Shown piece by piece: positions 1,656 through 63,371 of a DNA stretch of 64,000 nt. The notes under the pieces were generated by a model. That model worked only from the letters and a program-made list of their open reading frames with translations. It made no database searches and had not been told where the DNA came from. A program made the position numbers and the translations under genes. The number at the start of each line of letters is the position of its first letter. Positions within the stretch are counted from its first letter, which is position 1. The DNA lies in assembly GCA_026874595.1 (NCBI GenBank), contig CM049315.1:71779416-71843415 (forward strand), given 5' to 3'. Origin of the DNA: Sipunculus nudus (Eukaryota; Annelida; Sipuncula; Golfingiida; Sipunculidae).

Positions 1656-4556
1656 TAACAGCTGAGCGTCGTGACCCATAGGTCCCTTGTTTGATACCTT
1701 TAAAGATGTGGTTATCTGTCAACAGGGTACAAATCGCAACATCTGGACCTAGAATCTTCATTCTTGTCATGCAAGAAGGCCCATGAAAAGTGCCTGTTAC
1801 CCATATCCTTCCAGCTATAGGACTCCAAAGTATCCCTCAGAATAATGGACAATTTGATACAAAAGCTGAAGTATCTGAACAACTAATGGGGAGATCACCA
1901 TGATTCTTTGCATGGATATTGATGTTTGTAAGTGTTTTTATTAGTTTCTGCAGACTGGTGGAGCCACCTGTATTTTTGTACCCGCCAAAACGAAGTTTTG
2001 TGGATACTATGTTTTTGACCGGGTTCCTCCGCCGTTGCCGCATTCGTTTCCAGAGAGCTCCTCTGGGACTTGATTTTATCAGCTTTCCAAGCTCATATCT
2101 CGGGAACCGTTTGACTGATCAGGAAATAAAATTTATACTAATGTAGCCTTTGGACAGCTCTATAACATACACAAAAAATGGTGGCGCCACCTGTAACCAT
2201 GTTTGCACAGTGTCCATCTGTTCATCTGCCTTTGGTTAAAACCACTCATATCTCTGCAGTGAATTGACTAATTCACCTGAAATTCGGCATGCGTATACAT
2301 CCTGGATAGCTTTCTTAATTTTATGACAGGTGGCGCCACCTACATTCTCATTCATGCTGATGACATCCAAGCTCATATTTCGGGAACCGTTTGACCGATC
2401 GGGCCAAAATTTTGCATGTATATAGATCTAACATAGCTCTTTATCATACGCTAAACTGGTGGCGCCACCTGCAACCATTTTTGCACAGCGTCTGTCTGTT
2501 TGTCTGCCGTGCAATAAAGTCACTCATATCTCGGCAGTGGTTTGACATATCTGCCTAAAATTTTGCAGTTTTATACATCCTGGATAGCTTTCTTGATTTT
2601 ATGACAGGTGGCACCACCTACATTCTCGTTCACGCTAATGACATCCAAGCTCATATCTCGGGAACCGTTTGACCGATCGGGCCAAAATTTTGCATGTGTA
2701 TAGATCTAACATAGCTCTTTAACATACACAAAACTGGTGGCACCACCTGCAACCATTTTTGCACATTTTGCACAGCGTCTGTCTGTTGGTCTGCTGTGGC
2801 CTAAAATCACTCATTTCTCTGTAGTGGTTTGACATAACTGCCTAAAATTTTGCAGGTTTATACATCCTGGATAGCTTTCTTGATTTTATGACAGGTGGCG
2901 CCACCTACATTCTAGTTAACGCTGCACACATCCAAGCTAATATCTCATGAACCATTTGACCGATTGGGCCAAAATTGTGCTTGTGTTTAGATCTCACATA
3001 GGTCTTTATCATACACAAAACTGCAACCATTTTTGCACAGCGTCTGTCTGTTTGTCTGCCGTGGGCTAAAATCACTCATATCCATGTAGTGGTTTGACTT
3101 TTCTGCCTAAAATTTTGCATATGTATACAACTTGGACAGCTTTCTGGATTTGTGGTAGGTTGCACAACCTACATACACATTTAGGCTGCAGACATCCATG
3201 CTAATATGCAACATACCTCACTCTGTTTCCCCTTGCCACTCAATCCATGCCTCACTTCACTCTGATTTTGGCAGATACACGTAGTCACTTGTCGGCTACC
3301 CGTATTCTAGTTTTTAAAGTTTACACATTTTTTCTCTATTTTTCAGATATATAAAAACAGACTAAATCTTGGCCTGTTGGTTAATCTGTTTGATGCTTCA
3401 GTTGAATGGGTATCTACCATTATGATGATAAAATTTCCTTTTGTGAATCTCTTCCCAGTCAGCTGAGCGTCATGACCCATGGGTCACTTGTTTTTCTCTA
3501 TTTTTGAGACCTTTAAAAATGTGGACATCTGTCAACAGGGCACAAATCGTGAAGACTGGACCTAGAATCTTTGTTCTTGACATTCTGAGAGACCTATGAA
3601 AAGTCTCCATGGAAACCAGAAATTAGGTCTCTGTTACCCATATCCTTGGAGCTATGGGGCCCCAAAATACCCCCAGAATAGTCAAAAATTTTATACAAAA
3701 ACTTCAATATCTCATTAACTGCATCACTGATTGTCATGATTTTTGGCATACATGTTGATCATGAGATGTTCCTGCAGACTGGTGGCGCCACCTGTATTTT
3801 TCGATTTTTTACGAATTTTTTTCTCTATTTTTGAGATCTTTAAAAATGTGGACATCTGTTAACAGAGCACAAATCGTAAAGACTGGATCTAGAATCTTCA
3901 TTCTTGACATTCTGAGAGACCTATGAATAGTCTCCATGGAAACCAGAAATTAGGTCTCTGTTACCCATATCCTTCAAGCTATGGGGCCCCATATTGATCA
4001 TGAGATGTTTCATCAGTTTCAGCAGACTGGGTGCACCACCTCTATTTTTTTCAAATTTTTACGAATTATTTTCTCTATTTTTGAGACCTTTATCTGTCAA
4101 CAGGGTACAAATTGTAACAACTGGACCTAGAATCTTTATTCTTGTCATGCAAGGAGGCCCATGAAAAGTGTCTGTGGAAACCTGAAATTAGGTCTCTGTT
4201 ACCCATATCCTAAAAGCTATAGGACTCCAAAGTATCCCTCAAAATAATGGAAAATTTGATACAAAAGCTGAAGTAGCTGAACAACTTATCCAGAGACCAC
4301 CATGCTTTTTTGCATGGATATTGGCCATTAAGTGTTTTTATTAGTTTCTGCAGACTGGTGGAACCACCTGTATTTTTTTAAAGTTTACACATTTTTCCTC
4401 TATTTTTGAGATATATTAATACAGACACAATCTCAGCCTGTTGGTTAATCTGTTTGATGCTTCAGTTCAATGGTTATATACTACCATTCTGATGATAAAA
4501 TTTCCTTTTGCAAATCTCTTCCCAGTCAGCTGAGCGTCATGACGCATGGGTCACTT
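1656..4556 (+). mobile_element. Modular non-autonomous element(s), family A, with nested insertion
   Basis: These are repeated modules carrying 'aacagggcacaaatcg', 'ctggacctagaatctt', 'ttacccatatcctt' and a GGTGG..CCACC site. Three 3'-type ends of the form GTCAGCTGAGCGTCATGAC followed by a TGACCCATGGGTCA-like palindrome and CTTGTT occur near 1656-1692, 3457-3491 and 4526-4557. The region is therefore at least two tandem or nested A copies. Element B' interrupts one A module at 1978-3310. There is no coding capacity. The paired GCTCAGCTGAC / GTCAGCTGAGC ends and the terminal palindrome suggest a Helentron/HINE-like non-autonomous element, which is inference. Confidence 0.7.
1978..3310 (+). mobile_element. 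Helitron-like element B' nested in element A
   Basis: The start contains a small hairpin (CAAAACgaaGTTTTG) followed by 'ggatactatgtttttgacc'. The body holds about four tandem units of roughly 280 bp, beginning near 2092, 2372, 2649 and 2936, each with the phrase 'gctcatatctcgggaacc'. GGTGGCGCCACC or one-base variants recur about twice per unit. The 3' end has a GTAG...CTAC stem followed 11 bases later by CTAG at 3307-3310, then TTTTT. The flanks rejoin as an A module when compared with the uninterrupted copy at 4357-4390, which fixes both ends. A stem-loop and CTRR end are the Helitron hallmark; no helicase is present. Confidence 0.65.
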
Positions 4557-16173: not shown

Positions 16174-17580
16174 TTATTCCTCCTTCTTCCTCTTATTAAT
16201 ATTTCTTAATTTCCGTCTTTTCATTATCTTTTCTTTCAGTGAAGGCGCCAGTTTAACAGGAGCAGTTTCTTGTTCAAATAAATCCTCTACATTTTCCTGA
16301 CTGGTTTTAATGGCTTGGATGACCTCAAGTTGAGACAATGACTCGGACAAACTATTCACTTCGTTTTGCAGTTTCTCGACATTTTCAGTGAATTTCTCAA
16401 GTTCTGTTTTTAAATGCTCATAGGATTGCTCACATGTTTCTGTCTTCTCCTGCTGGATGGTTTTCTGCTTGTTTTTTTCTTTAATCTCTGACTTGATTGT
16501 GCTTATATCTTTCTCAAGCTCAAACAGATTTTCTTCCAATTCCCGCAGCTGCCTCAAAAGACGTGAACGCTTCAATTGTAAACCACAGTTTTTCTTAGTT
16601 TGTGTGATGCTAATGTCTAAAAAACCAACCATGCCTTCCTTTTGGCGTTTTTCTTCTGATTTGCTCTTTTGGCTTATCACACAAAGTTGTTCTTTTTCTT
16701 CCAAGTCTTGGAGATTGGTTTCTAGTTCTATTAATATGGCTTTACTTGAACAACACACCTCGTATGCCTCGTCTACAGATTTGACCAGCTCGTTCCGCTG
16801 TGTATATGTTTCGTCGAGCACTTTTGTTTTGCGGAACGCTTCGTTTCTGGCATTTAAAATGTTTTCATTGATCTGAATGATATAAGTTTCATCTTTATCG
16901 ATCCACTGCCTCGAGGTTCGAAACAAACTCTCAAGTTTCTCAGTCAAATCTGGTACGAGTCTTAACAGAGGAAAAGCCTTCAAGTCACAATACATTAAGA
17001 CTCTATCTGAAAACGCAGAGTTTGTAAACTGTTCTTGCCGTATACCACTTTGTAGCCCTGAAATTAACGTGTCAGTTTTCTTCAGGGTTGATTCCATCAG
17101 CCGTTCATATTCAGTGATGGTGTCTGAATATCTCCTAGCAACGGCAGGTGCATTTTTGCCATTCTTATAACTGACGCAACTGGTCTTTAGCCGTTTGAAA
17201 ATTCTCTCCACGAATAGATTTCTTTGATTCCGTATGCTGCCTACACACAGCTCCAAATGCTGCCAGAACTGGAGAAGAAAGTCCATTGTTCCCTGGTCCG
17301 GTTCCTCCATTACCTCTCTCATACTGTTCAGCATACTAATCAGCGCCACCTCACTGTCAATCACCTGTAGTGTGACGTCATGCTTCCGGAGCTGGTTATT
17401 ACAGTACAAGAAATTTTTATTACACTCCTTTAGGTACGTTTCATAGTGTTCCTCCTCGTTTTGTTCACAACAATAAAAGTCACGCTTGAGTTGTTCCAAC
17501 CCGACCTCCATATCTACCACCATTTGACGCAGATTATCTAAACCCTCCACGTATTCCTTGTGTGCCCCTTTTACCTCCAT
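16174..17580 (-). CDS. Intronless coiled-coil protein, 468 aa
   Basis: A single uninterrupted frame from ATG at 17580 to TAA at 16174. An in-frame TAG lies about 24 bases upstream, so the ORF cannot be extended without splicing. Start context AAAATGG is strong (A at -3, G at +4). The protein is highly charged. Residues 1-60 and about 280-430 show heptad-like Leu/Ile spacing (for example LLRQLRELEENLFELEKDIS) typical of long coiled coils. The middle (about 90-240) is predicted helical and includes a W/F/C-rich stretch near MDFLLQFWQHLELC. The last 20 residues are very basic (KIMKRRKLRNINKRKKEE) and could be a nuclear or nucleic-acid/microtubule contact. There is no signal peptide or membrane helix. 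The family is not recognised; candidates are cytoskeletal, ciliary or centrosomal coiled-coil proteins. The lack of introns suggests a retrogene or a lineage-specific single-exon gene. Confidence 0.85.
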   Translation of the reverse strand: MEVKGAHKEYVEGLDNLRQMVVDMEVGLEQLKRDFYCCEQNEEEHYETYLKECNKNFLYCNNQLRKHDVTLQVIDSEVALISMLNSMREVMEEPDQGTMDFLLQFWQHLELCVGSIRNQRNLFVERIFKRLKTSCVSYKNGKNAPAVARRYSDTITEYERLMESTLKKTDTLISGLQSGIRQEQFTNSAFSDRVLMYCDLKAFPLLRLVPDLTEKLESLFRTSRQWIDKDETYIIQINENILNARNEAFRKTKVLDETYTQRNELVKSVDEAYEVCCSSKAILIELETNLQDLEEKEQLCVISQKSKSEEKRQKEGMVGFLDISITQTKKNCGLQLKRSRLLRQLRELEENLFELEKDISTIKSEIKEKNKQKTIQQEKTETCEQSYEHLKTELEKFTENVEKLQNEVNSLSESLSQLEVIQAIKTSQENVEDLFEQETAPVKLAPSLKEKIMKRRKLRNINKRKKEE

Positions 17581-17630
17581 TTTAATCCATGAACAAAGGT
17601 GTACTAATTTTCGCTGTTAATATTATACAT
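17578..17630 (-). promoter_or_regulatory. Candidate core promoter and minimal upstream ORF of the coiled-coil gene
   Basis: A TATA-like GTATAATATT lies about 40-50 bases upstream of the start. Between it and the main ATG sits ATG GAT TAA, a two-codon upstream ORF whose stop ends one base before the main ATG. Its ATG has a weak context. Promoter use is inferred from sequence only. Confidence 0.3.
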
Positions 17631-36039: not shown

Positions 36040-37510
36040 CATATGACAGCCAGGTGATCTAGTTGGAGTAGAGTTTTTCTTGAAACTAATAGTGAAATGA
36101 TGACTAAGCTGAATGAAGGTGAGTTAAGAAGATGACACAATTTCTCTTGGGAGGGAAGTGATCCTTCTCGAACACAAGCGACCTATGATTCATACGTCAC
36201 TGACGCCTATGGGTGTAAACGGCTCCGTTGTTTGGCCTGACATACTAGGCCAAGTCGACGAACCAACTATACCAGCTGAGTACAGACGAGATATGGCTGA
36301 AAACACACAAATGCTCTTGGATTAACTACTCATGGCAAGCGTTATGGGGCCAGCTGTTGTTTTCACATCTTTGCCCCGGCGACATCGGCCCATGCAGAAT
36401 TAAATAATGATTTGACAACTCGGCTTCAACACCTGAATTTTAGGCACTGGTGACCCCTTACAAAAATTATTTATAATTTATAAATAAACAGTAGTATATT
36501 TCGTTGTTACGAAATATTTTCAAAGAATATAAACTGTTTGTAAATCATTTTTCGTTTTTCGTAACAACGAATACATTTTCAGTTCACCACGAATTATCGG
36601 GAAAACGCTGTTCGCAAAAACGGCGGTCTACTGTACAAATTTTATACGGTCGTGCAGTACAATACATTACATTGATAAACTGGGTGTTGCAGTACCACTG
36701 TTCTCATGGGTTAAAATAATCTTCTCATTCTATGACCATTATTGACCTCTTCTTTTTTATATTACGCCGTAACTTGAACAATTGTACCCATGAAATAGTC
36801 AAAGCATTCATACACTTACTTTAATATATATCTTTATTCCTAAAATTAATGGAGATTGCTCTCTCTGATATGTTGGATTGCCTCCAGATGGCGCACTCTG
36901 GCGCATCCCGTGTAAAACTGGAGATTTCCTTTCTTATTGAGGTCTAATGATCGTCAAACAACCTTGGTTTAATTTAGCTTTAGAATTCGTATTAAAATGA
37001 ATTTTAGCCACAATGATATATACATATTTGGAATCCTTAGAATATCTGCTGTTTCACAAGGTGCCGTATTTACAGCGCAAAATGTTAACGATTTCAGTGA
37101 TAGTCGACGCTGTTAGCTGGCTTTCACAGAAACATACACGGAGCAACGTTTACAGGACAACCAGTACAGCGTAATAATTATACATAAGAAGCGGCGAGTG
37201 CCAAGCAATGCACTATTTTATCGGTTTGTAGTATTCGGCTACGTCATGAAACGTAAATATTCTTGAAACAAGCTTTTGAATATATTCAAAATACATAGAC
37301 ATATTGAGCATAAAATAAGACAAGATAATAGCATGGGTGAAATAGTTATAAGCCCTTGCAAGTACGCAAAGTTTACTGAAATAACAAGCGGCTATTTCAT
37401 ATTTCATGACATATTCTTGCTAAACTACGACGTTAACCCGTTAAGGATGGCCCTGACATAATTTTGGGCAGTGACACAGACCTAAACAAAATTCAACGAT
37501 CTGCATAAAA
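36040..37510. other. Intergenic
   Basis: No supported gene. An imperfect inverted pair 'tttcgttgttacga' / 'tcgtaacaacgaa' at about 36499 and 36558 could be a small hairpin or MITE. Confidence 0.3.
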
Positions 37511-38140
37511 GACAGGGGTTCAGGCCCGGCTATCCGCTTCCCAGTTATCCGCTTCCCAAATATCTGCTCACCAAATATCCGGGTGCCCATATAACCGTGT
37601 GTGAGCATTAACGGTTGAAAATGACCCTGCATGGTTTATATATGCAACGGTCATGGAAAAAGAAGATGAAGGAAGACATCAAGGAACATTTAAATACAGG
37701 AGCTCGGGTAATTGAAGCATTTTTTACCAGATCGTGACATCGCTTTTGTGTCAGCTTTATATTCATTTTTGCAGGTTCTTATTAAGTTACCCCGAGCGAT
37801 TGTTTTTGCATCATTCATGACACATATATGTTGACGGACGGACAAAAAAAAACTGGTGTTGCATTTGTTGCCATAAAGGTGATTATAAGAGATTATACAT
37901 ATTCCTTAACAATATTTTTTTACCTTAAAATGTTAGCTTGGATGTTTTCATCACGTGAACCTTGGGAAACCCCGTTTGCATGATATAAATAAGCTGTTTC
38001 CTGTAGTCGAAAACCGCTCCGCCGTGAGAGGGTTCTCTTTAAGTGTAATACAAACGTTAATGCATCCTTGATCATGTAACCTCGATTGAATCATTAAGGC
38101 AAGTACACCCTTAATTATCTAAATAAACATAACAACATCT

Positions 38141-38141
<1 letters not shown>

Positions 38142-38184
<43 letters not shown>
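38142..38184. repeat. (CT)n at inner end of left foldback arm
   Basis: The mirror (GA)n lies at 41290-41340 at the inner end of the right arm. Confidence 0.9.
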
Positions 38185-38941
38185 TGTGAATATGAAATGA
38201 ATTATACAATACTACACTTCTTACATATAACTTAATCGGACAAAATAATGTAATTAAGTGAGACAAGTCTGGGATCCATTATAATTAATTTAACTCTCTA
38301 TCCGTCTCTCTCTTTTTATGTCTCTCATTCTATCTCTCATTTCCCCCCCCCCCTTATATTCATTCATTCTTTCTTTCTTTCTCTCGTCATTTACATCGTT
38401 ATCGGACAAAATAAAGTTATTAAATGAGACAAGTCTGGGATTTATGAAAATAAAACTCATTTATTAATTAATAAATTAATTCATTCATTTAGTCTTTCTT
38501 CTTCCCTTATTTTATTTCTCCTTTATCTTCTCTCTCCATCTCTGTTTATGAGTCTAATAATGCAATATTAAACGACTTACATATACCGTTATCGGACAAA
38601 GCAAAGTTGTTAAATGAAACAGGTCATTGGAACTATAAAAATTTAATTAACGATCTCTTTCCTTCTCTCTCTCATCCTTATTTTCATTATTTCTTTCTAT
38701 CTCTCTCATTCCATCTCTCATCCCTTCATTATTCATCCTTTCTTTCTCTTTTTCTCTCTGATTCATCCATTTATTCTTTGTCTCCAGATATATCGTTATC
38801 GGAAAAAATTATTGAATAAGAATCCATCGAAATTGAATTAACTCTCTCTCTCTCTCTCTCATTCTTTCTTTCTCCTTCTCATTCATTCATTCAACCATTA
38901 ATTCATTCTTCCCTTCTCTCTCTTTCGCCATCCCTCTCTCT

Positions 38942-38944
<3 letters not shown>

Positions 38945-38995
<51 letters not shown>
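38945..38995. repeat. (AT)n followed by (GT)n
   Basis: Compound dinucleotide tract directly abutting the solo LTR. Confidence 0.9.
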
Positions 38996-38997
<2 letters not shown>

Positions 38998-39557
38998 TAC
39001 GGAACCTAATATCAACAGGTCACGTATGCGTAATGAACACAAACTTTGTCAATAGGATGAAAAAAAAATCAGATTCTGTAACACTAGGCAGCGTGAAATG
39101 TCTAGGGGAACGAATAAAGAAGTCAGTGGTTTTATGTTAACAAATAACTATAATTTATTATTAAAACAACCCTTGTAAACAGCTCTTGTAACAATCCAGA
39201 AAGTAAACTTGAGGCAGGCAGCACTTAATTGTAAAGTGTTAGTAATAGTAGAATTCCTGAAATTACTGGATAATTGGATAGGTCCCACACTCTCATCTCT
39301 CTTTCCGCTTTAAAACACAGCCCCCTATTTATAACTTCTCGCCCCAAGCCGAGAATTTTAAACTTCTCGAACAATCTAAAGAATCTAAAACAGTACACAC
39401 GTTCAAAGAACATACCAGGCCAGGCGAGAAAGCCCCAAGCCAGCATGACAACGAGAGTTCAACCAGTACAGTTAAAACTGAGAGTGCAACACGCGGCCAG
39501 ACACGGGCGCTACAACACGAGTTACGCCCGTGTCACACAATAAAAAGGGCACCTGTA

Positions 39558-39560
<3 letters not shown>
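38995..39560 (-). mobile_element. Solo LTR
   Basis: 566 bp bounded by TGTTAC and GTAACA. On the minus strand it reads TGTTACAGGTGCCC to GGTTCCGTAACA, so it has the TG...CA form. It carries a TATA-like ATAAATAG (about 39335-39326) and AATAAA further on. The same sequence recurs in plus orientation at 43351-44158. No internal retroelement genes or second LTR lie beside it. No clear target duplication is seen. Confidence 0.65.

Positions 39561-39564
<4 letters not shown>

Positions 39565-39601
<37 letters not shown>
39565..39601. repeat. (AT)n microsatellite
   Basis: About 17 TA units between the LTR and the hairpin. Confidence 0.9.
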
Positions 39602-39608
<7 letters not shown>

Positions 39609-39732
39609 TTACAACGAAAATGTGCAGTTACACATTAACACGTGTTTTCATGCTGCCGCAAACATCTGATGATTGCGGCAGCATGAAAACACGTGTTAAT
39701 GTGTAACTGAACATTTTCGTTGTAAATTCTGT
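39602..39732. repeat. Near-perfect 59-bp-arm hairpin
   Basis: Arms 39602-39660 and 39674-39732 are reverse complements with a single mismatch (a C/A difference within 'tgtgcagttacac' versus 'gtgtaactgaaca'). The loop is 13 bases (39661-39673). (AT)n tracts lie on both sides. Confidence 0.9.
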
Positions 39733-39796
39733 GTATCAGCTCTTAGCATCAGGCTAATGGAGCACTGTTAGATTCGTTCTGCACCTATATACTTCT

Positions 39797-39797
39797 A

Positions 39798-39877
<80 letters not shown>
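39797..39877. repeat. (AT)n microsatellite
   Basis: About 39 TA units. Confidence 0.95.
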
Positions 39878-39879
<2 letters not shown>

Positions 39880-40460
39880 TGATCGGACAAAATAATGTTA
39901 TTAATGAGACAAGTCTGGGACAAATTAAAAATTAAAATTAACTCTCTTTTTCCTTCTCTCTCATTATTTCTCTTTTCTCTTTCTATCTCTCATTCATTCA
40001 TTCATTCTTTCTTTCTCTCTCGTCATATATATCATTATCGGACAAAATAAATTTCTTAAATAAGACAACTCTGGGATTAATGAAAATTGAAATATCACTC
40101 TTTCCGTGTCATATTTTCCCTTTCTCTCTATCTTTCATTCATTCATTCATTCTTTCTCTCTCGTCATTTACATCGTTATCTGAGAAAATAAAGTTATTAA
40201 ATGAGACAATTCTGAATAAATGAAAAAAAAATAAAATAAAATTTACCCACCCCCTTCTCCCTCTCTCCTTATGCTAAAAAAATAAAGAAAATACCACAGA
40301 AGAAATCAAAAGATATCACTCTTTACTTGACCTTTTGAGCCAGCATGCAGAAACATTAAATATTTGCAACATAGGCCTTAATACACTTGCGTAAAATAAT
40401 ATTTTCATTTGCAACATATAAAGACAAAGCTACCTTGCTATCCCAACTCAGAGAAGGAAG

Positions 40461-40532
40461 AATGAATGAATAAATGAATGAATGAATGAATGAATGAATG
40501 AATGAATGAATGAATGAATGAATGAATGAATG
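40461..40532. repeat. (ATGA)n microsatellite
   Basis: About 17 tetranucleotide units near the centre of the foldback element. Confidence 0.95.
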
Positions 40533-40657
40533 AGATAGAGAAGGAGAAAGAATGAGAGATAGAATGAGAGAAAGACGGAAAGAGAGTTAAATTAATTATA
40601 ATGGATCCCAGACTTGTCTCATTTAATAACTTTATTTTGTCCGATGATATATATTTG

Positions 40658-40659
<2 letters not shown>

Positions 40660-40710
<51 letters not shown>

Positions 40711-40713
40711 GGG
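40660..40713. repeat. (GA)n and G-run
   Basis: About 20 GA units running into 14 G. Confidence 0.9.
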
Positions 40714-41281
40714 AGAAAGAGAGAGAGCCTGAGAGAGTAAAATTAATTTTAATGGTTCCCGAACTTGTCTCATTTAATAACTTTATTTTGTCTGATAACG
40801 ATATATTTAGCGAGAAAGACAGAAAGAAAGATTGGAAGAATGAATTAATGAGAGAGAGAGAATGAAATAATAATAGAAAGAATGAGAGAGAGAGAGTTAA
40901 TGGAATTTTCATGGATCCTAGAATTTTCTAATTAATCAACAATTTTGTCCCATATCGATATATGTAAGGCGTCTAATATTGCATTATCAATTGCATATAC
41001 AGAGAGGGAGAGATAGAAAGAATGAATGAGAGAAAGAAAGAAAAGAAAAGAAAAGAAAAGAAAAGAAAAAGAGAAAGAAATAAAGGATGAAGGAATGAGA
41101 GAGATTGAATAAGGAGATAGAAAGAAAAAAATGAGACTCAGAATAAGAGAGAAAAGACGGAAAGAGAGAGTTAATTTAATTTTCATGGATCCTATGTCTT
41201 GTTTCATTTAATAACATTATTTTGTCCGATAATGATATATGTAAGGCGTGTAATATTGTATAATGCATTTCTTATTCACAA

Positions 41282-41289
<8 letters not shown>

Positions 41290-41340
<51 letters not shown>
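41290..41340. repeat. (GA)n microsatellite
   Basis: Mirror partner of the (CT)n at 38142-38184, at the inner edge of the right foldback arm. Confidence 0.95.
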
Positions 41341-41343
<3 letters not shown>

Positions 41344-42658
41344 GCAGATGTTGTAATGTTTATTTAGATAATTGCGGGTATACTTGTCTTTATGATTAAA
41401 TCGAGGTTACATGCATGATCAAGGGTGCATTAATGTTTGTATTACACTTAAAGAGAACCCTTTCGCGGCGGAGCGGTTTTCGACTGCACGAAACAGCTTA
41501 ATTATATCACGCAAGCGGTGTTTCCCCAGGTTAACGTGATGAAAACATTCAAGCTAACTTTTTAAGGTAAAAAATATTGTTAAGGAATATGTATTTATAA
41601 TCTCTTATAATCAACTTTATGACACTAAATTTAGAACCAGTTTGTTTGTCCGTCCGTCACCATATATGTGTCATGAATGATGCAAAAACAATCGCTCGGG
41701 TAAACTTAATAAGAACCTGCAAAAATGAATATAAAGCTGACACAAAAAGTAAAATTAATAATAATTTAATAAAAGCAGTGTTTTAACTAAGGCCGGGATG
41801 GCCTCACACGCACAAGTTTGCTTGGAGCGTCGCGGTTCAGTGATCGCACACATGCGGTAATCCGTTGACCCAATTCAGGACACCAGCCTCGACAGCGATG
41901 TCGCGATCTGGTAAAAAATGCTCCAAAAACCGGTAGCACCTGTATTTAAATGTTCTTAGTGTCTTTCTTCATCTTCTTTTTCCATGACCGTTGCATATAT
42001 GAACCGTGCAGGGTCATTTTCGACCGTTAACGCTCACGCACGGATATCTGGGCACGCGGTTACTTGGTGAGCAGATATTTGGGAAGCGGATAACTGGGAA
42101 GCGGATAGCCGGGCGGACACCCGGCCTCCGCACGCCTGTCAATCAAAAATGGGTCGTGCACCGCCAGGAAATAGTTAACCAATAAGCAATTGAATACCCT
42201 GTTGCCTCTCGCCGAGCTGACAGTGGTCCTGTATACAACCCACGTGGGGTTGACATCTGAATTAAAATGCTTATTTTTCCAATGGATACAATATAAAGCC
42301 AGAAAAGGGTTTTTGTGATAAGATAGATATAACAAGCAACTATAAGGTCACGGTTTTAAAATATGTCAATTTTACGATTTTTGACGATCATGAGACCTTA
42401 ACGTTAATTAAATCTAGAAATATGTATCAAGGGCGTGTTATAATCCAACAGAATATATAAAGTGTAAATTTCGTAATCCTGCCGTTTATAGGAGCGCTTT
42501 CTACCCGCGATGAAAAACTGCATTTCCGTAGAATATCTTTAAAAGCGAAACGTAGGAATCATGGAGGAAAACCTTTCACATAACATTTAAAATATAAAAA
42601 ATATTACACAATTAATGTTCTTAATCTATTTATCGTAAATTCTTTTTAAAATGTATAC

Positions 42659-42738: not shown

Positions 42739-43350
42739 AATTACAGTCAATGTGTAAGATATATATATATAAATTACAGTCAATGTGTAAGATCAGTCAA
42801 TTTGTAAATTGCTTGAAATTTTCAGTCAATTTACAAATTGCCTGATTCACTCAGGCACTTTATAAAATGGCTGAAATTTTCAGGCATTTTACAAATTAAC
42901 TGAAAATTCAGTCGGTTTATTTGACACATTGACTGAATCAATTTGCAATATAGTCTGTTGTTTCACATATTTCATTATTGTGAAAGTATATAACTAGCTA
43001 CTTTTAAGTAAACTTATGCCCGTTTTTTCTCTAGGCTATTTATGAAGAATACTGATCACGTAATTAGACTAAAATACGCAGACTGGTTGGGGGTAACCAG
43101 AATCATATAGTTTAAATATGCAGCTATTATAACATAATAAAATACTGCATATACTAAATTTTACAAACTCAAATGGCTACATCTTTGCATATGAAAAAAC
43201 AAGAATCAAGTCAAATGGAAGCTTTTGATTGAATAAAACATTAAAAACATTAAAATTTGCTATAATTTGTGAAATGAATGATGTAGATTGTAGAAAGTTG
43301 AGGGATAGCCGCAGTTACATTGTTGTTATAATCAAATACATGATTAATAT

Positions 43351-44158
43351 TGTTATAGGTGCTCTTTTTATTATGTGACACGGGCGTAACTCCTGTTGTG
43401 GCACTCGCGTCTGCCCACGTGTTACATTCTGTGTTTAATCCGTACTGGTTGAACTCTCGTTGTCATGTAAGCCTTGGGTTTTCACGCCTGGTCGTGGGTC
43501 ACGTGATGACCCTGGTGTGTGGGGATAAACACGGCTATAATCTTCTCGATAATTCTTGAAACGTGTGTTGTGCAAGATCTTATGGACTGTTCGAGAAGTA
43601 GAAAATTCTCGGCTTGGGGTGTGAAGGTATGTAAAGGGGTTGTGTTTTAGAACGGAAGGGCAAAGAGCAGAGAAGATTCCAGCGGACGCAGAAGCGTGTG
43701 TCAGATTCTAGGACCTTATCCGAAGAATGCGGCAATTATACATTTTCAAAGTCTCTCTCCTGGATTTTTAAGCATTTGGACTTCAGTTTACTTTCTGGGT
43801 AGTTGCAAGAACTTTCCATTGGACTGTCATTCTCCGGGAGTTTACATTTAAAGGACTTATCGTTGTGATGGTCTTGGTATCCAGGTACTGTGCGCATGGT
43901 TTTTCTACGTGATTGTATTGACTTGTTGTTATACCGCTGTTTTACTGTAAAATTGTATTGATTGAGTGTATTGTATTGTCAGGGTTGTTTTAAGGATAAA
44001 TTATAGTTATTTGTTAACAAAAAAACCACTGACTGCTTTTTTCATTCTCCTAGGCATTTCCAGCTGCCTAGTGTTACAGAATCTGATTTTTTAAATCTCC
44101 GTTACAGAATTTGTGTTCATCACGCATACGTGATCTGTTTGTATTAGGTTCCGTAACA
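43351..44158 (+). mobile_element. Second solo LTR, opposite orientation
   Basis: Starts TGTTATAGGTGCTC and ends GGTTCCGTAACA. Shared blocks with the copy at 38995-39560 include 'gtgacacgggcgtaact', 'tactggttgaactctcgttg', 'aaattctcggcttgggg', 'aaattatagttatttgttaac', 'gctgcctagtgttacagaat' and 'cacgcatacgtga'. At 808 bp it is longer because of extra internal segments (about 43495-43570 and 43660-43790). Confidence 0.65.
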
Positions 44159-44360: not shown

Positions 44361-44974
44361 CTGGACATACTATATTACCCGCTCCCCCCCCCCGTATTGA
44401 CAAATAAAAGAATATCATAATGCCATAAAATAGTTATTTACAAAAATGTGTCACAGTTTCCTCAAATATTAAAAGAGTGTAATCTTTCAGAAATACCTAA
44501 TAACTAACTTAACAAAATGACTGGTTATATGGCATTATTCACTCTTTTCCGTGACATTGTGCATTGGATCCATTCATTATATCACAAATTAAATAATCCA
44601 TGCAGATTTCAAGAATTTAAACAAGAACTTGAAGTTTTATTGTGAAATAACCAGAGGCGGATCCAAGGGTTGGGGGGGGGAGTTCAAGAGATGTTTGTTG
44701 CCCTAAGTAATTTAAGGTCAAACAATTTAATATATTGTTGGTTTCTGAAGCGCGATTTTCCCAGTTTTTTTCCATCATGTGTGCTTCAAAATTGCTGAAA
44801 ACTTGAAAGACATTTGTGTCAAATAAACTTACTGATAAATCAGTCAATTTGTAAAATGCCTGAAAATTTGAGTCGTTTTATATAGTGCCTGAGCGAATCA
44901 GCCAATTTGTAAATTGACTGAAAATTTCAGACAATTTACAAATTGACTGATTTGACACATTGACTGTAACATTT

Positions 44975-46611: not shown

Positions 46612-48873
46612 GCTCAGCTGACTGAAAGTCATCTGAGCTATAGCGATCACCCTTTGTCCGTCGTCCGGCCGTCCGTTAACAGGTCACAAATCGTAACCGC
46701 TGGACCTGGAATCTTCTCACTTGACATCCAGGGAGGTCCATGAAAAATCTCCTTGAAAACCTGAAATTAGGTCTCTGTTACCCATATCCTTTGAGCTATG
46801 GCGCTTCAAAGTACCCCCAGAATAATGCAAAATTTGATACAAAAGCTCAAGTATCTGAATAACCACTGCATTGATCACCATGATCCTTTGCATGAATATT
46901 GATCATGGGATGTTCCATCACTTCCTGCAGACTGGTGGCGCCACCTGTATTTTTCAAATTTTTACAAATTTTTTTCTCTTTTTTTTCAGACCTGCAATGA
47001 AACTGTCATCTGTTAACAGGGCACAAATCGTAACCACTGGACCTGGAATCTTCAAACTTAATATCCAGTGAGGTCCATGAAAAATCTCCTTGAAAACCTG
47101 AAATTAGGTCTCTCTTACCCATATCCTTGGAGCTATGGGGCTCCAAATTACCCCCCAGAATAATGCAAAATTTGATACAAAAGCTCAAGTATCTGAATAA
47201 CCACTGCATTGATCACCATGATTCATTGCATGAATATTGATCATGGGATGTTTCATCACTTCTTGCAGACTGGTGTCGCCACCTGTATTTTTCAAATTTT
47301 TACAATTTTTTTTCTCTTTTTTTAAACCTTTATGAAACTGTCATCTGTTAACAGGGCACAAATCGTAACCACTGGACCTGGATTCTTCAAAAATTAATAT
47401 CCAGGGAGGTCCATAAAAATTCTCCTTGAAAACCTGAAATTAGGTCTCTGTTACCCATATCCTTGGAGCTATGGGGCTCGGAATACCCCCCCCCCCCCCC
47501 CCCCCCCCCCCAGAATAATGCAAAATTTGATACATAAGCTCAAGTATCTGAATAACCACTGCATTGATCACCATGATTCTTTGCATGAATATTGATCATG
47601 GGATGTTCCATCACTTCCTGCAGACTGATGGTGCCACCTGTATTTTTTCGAATTTTTACAAATTTTTTTTTCTCTCTTTTTTTCAGACCTTAATGAAACT
47701 GTCATCTGTTAACAGGGCACAAATCGTAACCACTGGACCTGGAATCTTCAAACTTAATATCCAGGGAGGTCCATGAAAATTCTCCTTGAAAACCTGAAAT
47801 TAGGTCTCTGTTTCCTATATCCTTGGAGCTATGGAGCTCGGAAGTACCTCCCAGAATAATACAAAATTCATACAAAAGCTCAAGTATCTGAATAACCACT
47901 GCATTGATCACCATGATTCTTTGCATGAATATTGATCATGGGATGTTCCATCACTTTCTGCAGACTGGTGGTGCCATCTCTATTTTTTCGAATTTTTACA
48001 AATTTTTTTCCCTTTTTTTTCAGACCTTAATGAAACTGTCATCTGTTAACAGGGCACAAAGCGTAACCACTGGACCTGGAATCTTCAATCCTAATATCCA
48101 GGGAGGTCCATGAAAATTCTCCTTGTAAACCTGAAATTAGGTCTCTGTTACCCATACCCTTGGAGCTATGGGGCTCCAAAGTACCCCCCCCCCCCCAGAA
48201 TAATGCAAAATTTGATACAAAAGCTCAAGTATCTGAATAACTACTGCTTTGATCACCATGATTCTTTGCATGAATATTGATCATGGGATGTTCCATCATT
48301 TCCTGCAGACTGGTGGCGCCACCTATATTTTTTCGAATTTTTACCAATTTTTTTCTCTTTTTTTTTTCAAACCTTAATGAAACTGTCATCTGTTAACAGG
48401 GCACAAATCGTAACCACTGGACCTGGAATCTTCAAACTTAATATCCAGTGAGGTCCATGAAAAATCTCCTTGAAAACCTGAAATTAGGTCTCTGTTACCC
48501 ATATTTTCCGAGCTATAGGGCTCATTTATATAAATACCCCCAAGAATAATTAAAAATTTTAAACAAACAAAAGCTCAAGTATCTGAATAACCACTGCATT
48601 GATAGCCATGATTCTTTGGAAATATATATTGATCATGGAGTGTTTCATCAGTTCTGGTGGCACTATCTGTATTTTTTTTTTCAAATTTTTACTCATTTTT
48701 TTTTTATTTATGAGACCTTCAAATAAGTTGTCATCTGTCCAAAAGCCCACTCAAACCCATTTCTAAGGACTCTTCACAAAATTCATGATTTGTTTGCACT
48801 CTGGCAGTCATTTTGCTCATTGTTCAACATGACTTGAATTCAGCTGAGCGTCATGGCCCATGGGCCACTTGTT
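46612..48873 (+). mobile_element. Family A element, six tandem modules (most complete copy)
   Basis: It starts 'agctcagctgactgaaagtc' and ends 'cagctgagcgtcatggcc', palindrome-like 'catgggcc', then CACTTGTT. Modules of about 340 bp begin with 'aacaggg(t)cacaaatcgtaacc' near 46680, 47005, 47340, 47701, 48038 and 48386. Each contains 'ttacccatatccttggagct', a C-run, 'aatttgatacaaaagctcaagtatctga', 'attgatcatgggatg' and a GGTGGCGCCACC-type site followed by a T-rich stretch. The terminal GCTCAGCTGAC at the start is the reverse complement of GTCAGCTGAGC at the end. The open frames here are translations of modules and not genes. Confidence 0.75.
47486..47511. repeat. Poly-C tract, 26 bases, in one A module
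   Basis: The same position in sister modules has 5-15 C, so this is an expansion of a module-internal C-run. Confidence 0.9.
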
Positions 48874-50084: not shown

Positions 50085-53000
50085 GAGCTAACCTCGAGAT
50101 CACTGTGATATCATTACAGAGTCACGGGTGTGAGTTCATAACTATGAACCAACTGTGAACTCATGGTTAGGTCACTGCTGTGAGTTCATGTCTGTTACAC
50201 AACATTGAGTTCACAGTGATATCACAGGATGACGTCAAAAATGTGACACCACGGTGAATTCACAACCGTGAGCTCACAGTGATATCATGGCATGAGTTCA
50301 TGTCTGTTACACAACAGAGAGTTCACAGTGATATCACAGGATGACATCAAAAATGTGACACCACGGTGAATTCAGAACCGTGAGCTCACAGCAATATCAT
50401 GGCATGAGTTCATGTTTGTTACACAACAGCGAGTTCACAGTGATATCACAGGATGACATAATTAATGTGACACCACGGTGAATTCACAACCGTTTGCTCA
50501 CAGTGATATCATGGGATGAGTTCATGTCTGTTACCCAACAGTGAGTTCACAATGATATCTCAGGATGACGCTATAAATGTAACACCACAGTGAATTCATA
50601 ACCATGAGTTCACAATGATGGCATTGCTTGAGTTCATTTCTGTTACACAACATTGGGTTCACAGTGATATCCCAGGATGAGGTAAAAAATGTGACACCAC
50701 TGTCAATTCACAAGAGTGAGCTCAAAATGATATCATAGCACGAGTTCATGTATGTTACTCATCAGCGAGCCCACCGTGATATCACAGGATGACGTCAAAA
50801 TGTGACACCACGGTGAATTCACAAGCCTGAGCTCACAGTAATATCATGGCATGAGTTCATGTCTGTTACACAACAGCGAGTTCACAGTGATATCACTGGA
50901 TGAAATCAAAAATGTGACACCACGCTGAATTCACAACCGCGAGCTCACAGTGATATCATGGGATGAGTTCATGTCTGTTACACAAAAGTGAGTTCACAGT
51001 GATGTCTCAGGATGACGTTATAATTGTAACACCACAGTGAATTCATAACCATGAGTTCACAATGATGGCATTGCTTGAGTTCATTTCTGTTAGACAACAT
51101 TGGGTTCACAGTGATAACCCAGGATGAGGTAAAAAATGTGACACCACGGTGAATTCACAACCGTTTGCTCACAGTGATATCATGAGATGATTTAAAGTCT
51201 GTTACACAAAAGTGAGTTCACAGTGATATCTCAGGGTGACGTTATAAATGTAACACCACAGTGAATTCATAACCATGACTTCACAATGATGGCATTGCTT
51301 GAGTTCATTTCTGTTACACAACATTGAGTTCACAGTGATTTCCAAGGATGAGGCAAAAAATGTGACACAACGGTGAATTCACAACAGTGAACTCAAAATG
51401 ATATAATAGCATGTGAGCTCACGTCTCAAAATCAGACTCCGCGGTGAATTCACAACCGTGAGCTCACAGTAATAGCATAGCAGTGAGCTCATGTCTGTTA
51501 CACAACAGTGAGCTCACAGTGATATCACAGGATGACATCAAAAATGTGACACCACGGTGAATTCATAACCGTGAGCTCACAGTAAAATCATGGCATGAGT
51601 TCATGTCTGTAACACAACAGTGAGTTCACAGTAATATCATAGGATGACGTCAAAATGAGACGCCGCGGTGAATTCACAACCGTGAGCTCACAGAGATAGC
51701 ATAGCAGTGAGCTCATGTATGTTATCCAACAGTGAGTTCACAATGATATAACAGGATGACATAAAAAATGTGATACCACAATGAATTCACAACTGTGAGC
51801 TCACAGTGAAAGCATGACATGAGGTCATGTGTAATTCACAACAGTTGGTTCAGAGTGATATCTCAGGATGACTTCAACATGTGACAGCACGGTGAATTTA
51901 CGGCTGTGAACTCACAGTGATATCATGGCATGAGTTCATGTCTGGTACACAACAGTGAGTTCACTTTTATATCACAGGATGAATTCAAAAATGTGACACC
52001 ACGGTGAATTCACAACCGAGTTCACAGTGATATCATGGCATGAGTTCATGTCTGTTACACAACAGTGAGTTCACAGTGATATCAAAGGATGACGTCAAAT
52101 TTTGACACCCCGGTGAATTCACAACCATGAGCTCACAGTGATAGCATAGAAATGAGCTCATGTATGATATACAACAATCAGTTCACAATGATATCACAGG
52201 AAAACGTAAAAAATGTGACACCACAATGAATTCACAACAGTTAGGTCACAGTGATAGCATGACATGAGGTCATGTCTGTTACACAACAGTTAGGTCAGAG
52301 TGATATCCCAGGATGACGTTAAAATGTGACACCGCGGTGAATTCACAATATGAGCTCACAGTAATATCATGGCATGAGTTCATGTCTGTTACACAACAGC
52401 AAGTTCACAATGATATCATGGGATGACATCAAAAATGAGCTCACAGTGATATCAGGGCATGAGTTCATGTTTGTTACTCATCAGCGAGCCCACCGTGATA
52501 TCACAGGATGACGTCAAAATGTGAAAACAACAGTGAGCATAACAGTGAGCTCATGTATGTTATACCAGAGTGAATTCACAATGATATCACAGGATGACGT
52601 CAAAATGTGACACCATGGTTAATTCACAACCGGGAGCTTACAGTGATATCTTTGCATGAGCTCATGTCTGTTGCACATCAGCGAGCTCACACTGATATTA
52701 CAGGATGACGTCAAAAATGTGCCATCATCTTGAATTCACAACCGTGAGCTCACAGTGATGACATGGCATGGAGTTCATGTAAATTACACAATAGTGAGTC
52801 CATAATGATATCTCAGGATGATATACAAATATGACACCGCGGAGAATTCACAACTGTGAGCGCACAGTGACGGTATAGCAGTGAGCTCATGTATGTTACA
52901 CAACGATGAGGTCACAGTGATGTCGTGGCATGAGTTCATGTATGTTACACAACAGTGAGATTACAGTGATATCTCAGGATGACGTTAAAATGTGACACCG

Positions 53001-53603
53001 TGATGAAAACACAACCGTGAGTTCACAGTGATGGCATTGCTTGAGTTGATGTCCGTTACAAAAGAGTGTGTTCACAGTAATAGCAGAGAATGACGTCATA
53101 ATGTGACACCTCAGAGAATTCACAACCTAGAGTTCTGTGTGATATCAAGGCATGAGTTTCTTTCTGTTACACAAAAGTGAGTTCACAGTGTTATCACAGG
53201 ATGACGTCAAAAATGTGACATCGTGGTAAAATCAGAACCGTGAGCTCACAGTGATGACATGGCATGAGTTCATGTCTGTAACACAACAGTGAGTTCACAA
53301 TGATATCACAGGATGACATAAAAAATGTGATACCACATCGAATTCACAATTGTGAGCTCACAGTGAAAGCATGACATTAGGTCATGTCTGTTACACAACA
53401 GTTAGTTCAGAGTGATATCTCAGGATGACGTCAAAATGTGACACTGCGGTTAATTCACGGCCGTAGACTAATAGTGATAGTATATAGCAGTGAGCTCAAG
53501 CATGTTACACAACAGTGAGTTCACGGTTATATCACTGGATGAAATGGCACCGCAGTGAATTCACACTGTGAGCTCACAGTGATAGCATGGAATGAGTTCG
53601 TGC
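50085..53603 (+). repeat. 112-bp satellite array, about 31 copies
   Basis: Tandem units with 'catgtctgttacacaaca' at 50187, 50299, 50411, 50523 and so on give a period of 112 (sometimes 111) bp. Each unit carries several 10-bp palindromes of form GTGANNTCAC (GTGAATTCAC, GTGAGCTCAC, GTGATATCAC) and a TGACGTCA-like site. Variant units repeat in order: the pair starting near 50508 recurs near 50950 and 51175. No coding frame. Divergence between units is moderate. Confidence 0.9.
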
Positions 53604-62142: not shown

Positions 62143-63371
62143 ATATAAATCTTGTTGGCGTGATAACTCAAAAAATATTCCACGGATCTTTACCAAACTT
62201 TATATATGTATAGATATGGGTGAGAGGACGACACCTATTTAAAAAGAGGTCATGACCTTGACTAGGAGAGTGTCCTTGACCTTGAATATGTCTAATTTTG
62301 GGGAAAATCACACAAATTCTTAAATATCTCAAGAAATCTTGCATGGATTGATCCCAAAATCAAGTTGATGGAAGATCATGAATAGGGTTGTCATGTTCGA
62401 GAAACTGGTGGCGTCACCTATTATTCTTTACTTGTTGTCATGCCGTTTAATACCCCCAAAATTGGTACTTGACAGTACTGTGAGCATTATAAGTAAAAAA
62501 ATAATGGACAGATTTCTTTTATATTATGCATATACATAAATATGGGTTATGGGATGATGTTTATTTAAATTGGGGTCATGACCTTTCCTATGAGTGGCCT
62601 TGACCTTGAATATTGCCATATATGGTGAAAATCACACAAAATCATTAATATCTCAATAAGGGATGCATGGATTGGCCCAAAAATCAACTTGACCGAAGAT
62701 CAAGGATAGTAATGTCATGTACCGGAAACAGGTGGCGCCACCTATTATTCGTTTACTTGTTTTCGTGCCGTTTAATACTCTCATAATTGCCACTTAACAG
62801 TACTGTGGGCATTATAAGTCAAAAACTATCAGACAGATTTCTTTCATATTATGCATGTACATAGACATGGGTTATGGGATGATGTATATATAAATTGGGG
62901 TTATGACCTTTCCTATAAGAGTGGCCTTGACCTTGAATATTACCATATATGGTGAAAATTACACAAAATCCATTAATATCTCAATAATGGATGCATGGAT
63001 TGGTCCAAAAATCAACTTGATCGAAGGTCTTGGATAGTATTGTCATGTACCGGAAACAGGCGGCGCCACCTTTTATTCTTTTACTTGTTTTCGTGCCGTT
63101 TAATACCCCATCATTGCCACTTAACAGTACTGTGAGCATTACAAGTCAAAAACTAATGGACAAATTTCTTTCATATTATGCATATACAGAGACATGGGTT
63201 TGGGATGATGTATATTGAAATTTGGGTCATGACCTTTTCTATGAGAGTGACCTTTTCTATGAGTGTGGTCTGATATTAATTGTTGCTGAAGATGGGGGGC
63301 CTATTCATAAAGAGGGGGGGGGGGGATTGTCTGGGGATCCTATGACACCTGCGGTGCCAAGAAATATCTAG
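62067..63371 (+). mobile_element. Helitron-like element B, plus-strand copy (most complete)
   Basis: The start is a hairpin, GTATCCCCAGAC aaa GTCGGGGGATAC, followed by a (CCG)n tract. Three modules of about 325 bp follow, with 'ggtcatgacctt', 'atatctcaa(t/g)aa', GGTGGCGCCACC-type sites at about 62406, 62731 and 63058, and 'cagtactgtgagcattata'. The 3' end has 'gtctggggatcc', a CACC..GGTG stem and CTAG at 63368-63371 followed by TTG. A terminal stem-loop and CTAG fit Helitron 3' ends. 1,305 bp, no ORF. Confidence 0.7.
62111..62141. repeat. (CCG)n microsatellite
   Basis: About 10 trinucleotide units near the 5' end of element B. Confidence 0.95.

Follow-up and report, generated by a model that had tools for sequence, protein, structure and literature searches.

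A foldback element with opposed internal arrays and unlike ends in Sipunculus nudus, placed with high probability in the Mutator superfamily

The DNA examined here is a 64,000-nucleotide stretch of the Sipunculus nudus genome (assembly GCA_026874595.1, contig CM049315.1, positions 71,779,416 to 71,843,415 of the forward strand), hereafter the window, to which all coordinates without a contig or locus label refer. Positions 37517 to 42121 hold a whole foldback element of 4605 bp, which we consider with high confidence to be a non-autonomous, internally deleted member of a foldback family of the Mutator superfamily (Mutator-like elements, MULEs). An earlier note on this sequence had recognized the foldback and placed its limits at 37511 and 42140; we replace these by 37517 and 42121, because the other copies of the family end there. 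The former limits are not shared by other copies; the outward similarity around GACAGG there is within chance, 14.6% of shuffles reaching it, and a search for a target-site duplication (TSD) returned only a chance 6-mer.

Comparison of tips, together with a test of the flanks, assigns a 7-bp motif to each end: GGTTCAG (type B) at 37517–37523 on the plus strand and GGTGTCC (type A) at 42115–42121 on the minus strand. Inside these motifs lie 15-bp subterminal tandem repeats, TATCCGCTTCCCAGT-like on the plus strand of the left tip (37531–37581) and on the minus strand of the right tip (42041–42107), in agreement with the repeated units reported earlier at the outer tips. Within the window, the 13-mer TATCCGCTTCCCA has exactly four perfect matches, each at one of the two tips, and six matches when up to two mismatches are allowed, compared with 0.83 expected. 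These arrays are putative transposase-binding sites. Folding of the left tip as single-stranded DNA was unremarkable (z −0.84), and an Rfam scan gave nothing at the gathering score.

The left arm (37524–38141, plus strand) measures 618 bp and the right arm (41345–42114, minus strand) 770 bp, the arrays being extra. Aligning 37524–38240 with the reverse complement of 42114–41225 gave 652 identities, 61 mismatches and 181 gap columns, so that the arms are 91% alike over aligned bases (approximately 9% divergence), which bears out the inverted arms of the earlier description. The gap columns belong mostly to a single 147-bp gap; since the arms of other copies break at positions 231–234 of the left-arm query with a gap of about the same size, the deletion is assigned to the left arm of the window copy. 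The mirrored inner borders were likewise found, as (CT)n at 38142–38185 on the plus strand and (GA)n at 41282–41340 on the minus strand. Between them, core units of approximately 45 bp, set within CT- or GA-rich spacers, run as seven plus-strand copies (units 1–4 at 38222–38928 and the last three at 39869–40226) followed by four minus-strand copies (40453–41264), the numbers and orientations first proposed; six of the seven plus units exceed the score threshold of the orientation scan. A 223-bp middle domain (40230–40452) separates the two arrays, and two unrelated insertions, at 38995–39560 and 39598–39736, interrupt the plus units. The window copy contains no transposase, as had been stated: its frames are low-complexity or short and do not match the transposase of sister copies described below. 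A repeat of the form cataagaagcggcgagtg...caagcaatg lies near the element (37185–37212) and also directly beside the right flank of a family copy in locus L015.

The genome search suggested by the earlier note covered 1.43 Gb in 153 contigs. With the left arm as query, at least 81 matching pieces were found (40 of 175 candidates scored), and a tip pattern allowing up to two mismatches occurred at 93 places (47 plus, 46 minus), compared with none for the reversed-pattern control. The 15-bp double repeat, with up to three mismatches, gave 184 hits, of which a single tip may yield several, and again none in the control. The tip pattern was absent from two other collections, genome_contigs and viral_contigs, which may omit the genome of the window itself. 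By pairing, by eye, plus and minus tips no more than 10 kb apart, using the tip-pattern hits and one right tip known otherwise (C17:47399557), we obtained 28 elements of 426–5021 bp. Unit orientation was scored in 14 element spans, some limits of which (in L009, L016, L017, L020, L023 and L037) were set by arm matches and not by two clean tips, and one of which (L023, 8.6 kb) may contain more than one element; nine spans run plus-then-minus, five show a single orientation and none places minus before plus.

Tip comparison indicates that the inverted repeat proper begins with GCCCGG and that the outer 7 bp belong to the element without being inverted. When tips are assigned to the nearer motif, 25 of 27 elements carry one type A and one type B end. 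The exceptions are C2:10106939, with an unclear left tip and a type A right tip, and C4:20192329, with two type A tips; the 426-bp element, whose tips are B and A, was omitted from this count for its length. Directly outside the 7-bp motifs, 19 of the 28 tip pairs are flanked by a TSD, of 8 bp in 15 pairs (13 perfect, two with one mismatch) and of 9 bp in four pairs, all perfect. In flanks drawn from different elements, by comparison, a duplication with no more than one mismatch was seen in 2 of 756 combinations at 8 bp and in 2 of 756 at 9 bp.

Five copies with TSDs (L010, L012, L018, L021 and L025) were examined for related empty sites by joining the flanks without the element and comparing the result with the fetched sequences. 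L021 has a related empty site in L039, matched likewise by the near-identical L038, and L025 has related empty sites in L014 and L016, whereas no empty site for L010, L012 or L018 was present among the fetched sequences. The empty sites span the junction with one copy of the target; one has a 1-base insertion, and all have mismatches nearby. Together with the dispersed copies and the TSDs, they confirm the segment as a foldback transposon.

A tree built from 47 arms, seven of the 54 having been dropped for poor alignment, provides information about how these elements moved. In two sister pairs, C16_53817522 with C17_58669411 and C10_40666312 with C16_33022809, the A arm pairs with the A arm and the B arm with the B arm while the flanks differ, which demonstrates movement of whole elements as units. 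In C3_14112094 both arms cluster together, and in C1_75249700 both fall within one group of three, a grouping such as would appear after homogenization. Arm identity has a median of 0.94 within elements and is approximately 0.90 between elements. A clean division of the tree into A and B arms was not found; tip type changes 12 times compared with a shuffled mean of about 15.8, and shuffles reached values as low in 20 of 500 (B) and 22 of 500 (A) cases, so that tip type is only weakly clustered. Out of the 54 arms, 41 have a nearest neighbor of the same tip type and two have theirs in the same element, near-copies adding to both counts.

The tree also bears on the origin of the window copy, whose flanks show no TSD (two of eight and one of nine positions agree). 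This copy could be a chimera, with two half-elements brought together by ectopic recombination, an origin that is compatible with Mutator membership and would explain the missing duplication, and the position of its two arms apart on the tree fits it as well. However, the arms of other copies rarely group with their partners either, as the nearest-neighbor count indicates, and the tree is therefore no proof of a chimera; moreover, the copy carries an A end paired with a B end, as most copies do, and decay of a TSD explains its absence equally well. We regard a chimeric origin as unlikely, yet as a possibility to be taken seriously.

The placement in a superfamily depends on sister copies. Four further whole elements were fetched, the arms of which represent a second subfamily. 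One element, L083 (C15:39990167-39994256), is flanked by a 9-bp TSD without mismatch, has tips of types B and A, and contains an open frame of 308 amino acids on the minus strand (L083:1694-2617), the conserved part of which begins where the array stops. Without its array-coded start, the L083 protein matches the Pfam family MULE (PF10551) with an E-value of 1.1e-14 over profile positions 1–98 of 99, at 55.1 bits compared with a gathering cut-off of 27.6. PF10551 is the sole domain matched; the frame is truncated at its N-terminus, the end where MULEs of the Phantom clade carry a FLYWCH zinc finger, and the gene is for this reason a remnant. Its motifs FMDGTF, MTDFEA and NNMVEGWHSSLN resemble what we take to be the D-D-E catalytic set of MULEs. 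The transposase flanked by tip arrays that the earlier note proposed to look for is thus present in a sister copy, as an N-truncated piece. In the interiors of L080–L082, none of the six scanned frames gave a transposase domain above the cut-off, and the L083 protein found no match there.

In the whole genome, the L083 protein has at least 137 matches (135 of 335 candidates scored), of which 18 positions were placed by script and the remainder compared by eye. Three lie inside the 28 paired elements, on C15, C5 and C9, compared with 0.008 expected by area, those on C5 and C9 being C-terminal transposase remnants of 89% and 88% identity. A further remnant of 87% identity (C1:66362935-66363369) stops approximately 0.8 kb before a facing tip repeat (C1:66364181-66364208); one tip was seen, and its C-terminal end points toward the nearer arm, as it does in L083. 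Approximately 50 of the 137 matches represent a second MULE-like family, whose scores are nearly equal and whose identity to the L083 protein is about 37%; most of these matches have a 607-amino-acid frame, and the family looks young and high-copy.

The window copy is linked to the transposase-bearing copies by its middle domain, which matches 13 other fetched loci, L083 included, when L003, L005 and L006, which repeat L010, L012 and L013, are left out. A shared stretch of 70 bp (40378–40447) leads in L083 into the region 3' of the transposase gene, and other copies retain up to approximately 360 bp of this 3' region, or approximately 500 bp in one weaker match (L033). Because the middle domain continues into the stretch beside the L083 gene, the window copy is best read, on the basis of shared sequence, as derived by internal deletion from an element that carried a transposase.

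Our reason for placing the family in the Mutator superfamily is that pieces of a MULE transposase lie in sister copies that have these ends and arrays. With respect to the features by which MULEs are identified, the transposase domain is present in the family through L083 and the remnants and not in the window copy, TSDs in the 8–11-bp range flank the tip pairs counted above and not the window copy, and terminal inverted repeats (TIRs) are long. Of the features of Tm1-type elements, the two unlike 7-bp end motifs are present, and so are tandem repeats of 13–15 bp in the arms, here as 15-bp units. Filing the family as Tm1 itself was rejected, since GCCCGGC, and not the 3-bp motif B (GGA), follows the end motif. 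The earlier note had left the family unrecognized; its superfamily can now be named through the sister copies.

Several observations weigh against this placement. Nine of the 28 tip pairs, the window copy among them, lack a TSD, and the empty sites are old repeats with an overall identity of 76–85%. Among 15 fully read two-tip elements, the L083 protein, compared with all fetched loci and the window, matches L083 only. No complete transposase was seen between these ends, L083 itself lacking the N-terminus, and the gene in L083 may have been captured as a fragment from a different MULE. The remnants in other members make this less probable, although they may share descent.

The family might instead be a foldback of a different superfamily, such as P/Galileo or hAT, in which part of a MULE gene was captured and then spread with some members. 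TSDs of 8 bp fit hAT and P as well, and the gene piece in L083 is truncated. Foldback structures are also described as having arisen in several superfamilies (PMC3169594, as far as its excerpts go). On the other hand, transposase remnants are present in several members, the mixture of 8- and 9-bp TSDs is that given for the Muta1 and Muta5 MULEs in the available text of PMC5225508, and the unlike 7-bp ends with 13–15-bp tandem repeats agree with those of Tm1, a MULE. Only a MULE transposase was seen inside members, no search with a P-type model having been made. We consider such a capture highly improbable. That the segment is a local inverted duplication or an assembly artefact, the two outcomes named earlier as fatal to a transposon and to which the missing TSD might point, is next to impossible, since its arms are about 9% apart and copies of its arms, tips and arrays, accompanied by TSDs and empty sites, are found on many chromosomes.

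If the family is a Mutator foldback, a MULE transposase encoded elsewhere in the genome would have bound the 15-bp subterminal repeats, paired a type A with a type B end and excised the element, which would then have inserted through an 8- or 9-bp staggered cut. Derivatives without the gene would remain mobile, as their ends are retained, and the opposed arrays may have expanded within the arms through slippage or unequal exchange. The TSD of the window copy would have been lost through later recombination or decay of the flanks. In L083:2540-2620, on the minus strand, the CT-rich array leads into TTTGCCACAG immediately ahead of the conserved exon of the transposase, in a manner resembling a splice acceptor. 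Because the array runs into this sequence, the CT-rich arrays might be a working part of the element, as intron and polypyrimidine tract of the transposase gene; combined with two functionally different ends, of which the transposase would accept only A with B even though the arms are otherwise alike, this is a tentative suggestion that we consider rather doubtful.

Several known systems resemble the family described here. The TU elements of sea urchins have long inverted repeats, outer 15-bp tandem repeats and 8-bp TSDs, a likeness of general architecture and not one of compared sequences. They are cited as foldbacks in PMC4079207. The closest published relative, judging from the excerpts of PMC3169594, is Tm1 of Meloidogyne (Mutator/Foldback, Phantom subclass). 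In these root-knot nematodes, the two ends of Tm1 bear different 7-bp motifs that lie outside the inverted repeat, and its arms contain 13–15-bp tandem repeats; TSDs of 8–10 bp flank 45 of 53 elements, the arms are approximately 93% alike within one element, and a Phantom-type MULE transposase is present in rare members, most copies being non-autonomous. The two families are alike in ends, repeats, TSD sizes, arm similarity, the rarity of the transposase and the prevalence of non-autonomous copies. Both repeat units contain TATCCGC, although 61 of 5000 shuffles equal the score and this is a hint only. Tm1 differs in its motif B (GGA) and its purine-rich motif D, and opposed internal arrays are not described in the available portion of its report.

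In the Muta1 and Muta5 MULEs of Aedes aegypti, as the accessible text of PMC5225508 describes them, TSDs measure 8 or 9 bp and a short motif at the terminus precedes subterminal tandem repeats of 12 or 15 bp; non-autonomous derivatives with common ends are numerous. These MULEs resemble our family in TSDs, subterminal repeats and derivatives, but have TIRs of 145–151 bp, and no opposed arrays are described there. Excerpts of PMC4079207 and PMC8277862 present the Drosophila foldbacks FB, Galileo and Tetris as having very long arms with tandem repeats; FB4, with 9–10-bp TSDs and TIRs of about 700 bp, has been proposed as a MULE, whereas Galileo belongs to the P superfamily and the authors of the Tetris study found no autonomous copy. 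Long arms are not in themselves new, because arthropod MULEs with TIRs as long as 1193 bp are already listed (excerpt of PMC13359780); a wider survey gives 14–500 bp and describes long TIRs as common, not universal, among MULEs (excerpt of PMC6446971). Among the titles and abstract openings found in the literature, none describes this family or a bivalve MULE foldback.

Other repeats and one open frame were observed in the window. The nested insertion at 38995–39560 is related to a longer copy in the opposite orientation at 43351–44158, the two being 78–86% alike in pieces; this element has TGTTAC...GTAACA-like ends, of the kind found in long terminal repeats or short TIRs, and no TSD was seen by eye. 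The second insertion, at 39598–39736, is a near-perfect 139-bp palindrome with 69-bp arms that are 96% complementary and a 1-nucleotide loop; it adjoins an AT repeat and may be similar to miniature inverted-repeat transposable elements. Repeats of 29 bp, of the CAGTCAATTTGTAAATTG kind, occur at 42793–42920 and 44840–44966, approximately 2 kb apart, and flank the nested-element copy at 43351–44158. Large tandem arrays are located at 2156–3207 (period of about 278 bp), 46675–48654 (about 337 bp), 50181–53599 (about 112 bp) and 62236–63254 (about 325 bp). A minus-strand open frame of 480 amino acids (16174–17616) appears coiled-coil-like, and a Pfam scan assigned it to no family above the cut-off.

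The family represented in the window is a Mutator-superfamily foldback family in which the interior consists of elaborate opposed arrays and the two ends are almost always unlike, an ordinary but well-resolved case. Transposase remnants, TSDs and empty sites within this one family tie an elaborate foldback with opposed arrays directly to the Mutator superfamily. The family is also a natural collection of elements in which unlike ends are an almost strict rule, as described earlier in the nematode Tm1, and through it the need of MULE transposases for unlike ends becomes testable. Finally, the long hairpin formed by such elements could supply double-stranded RNA directed against their own family.

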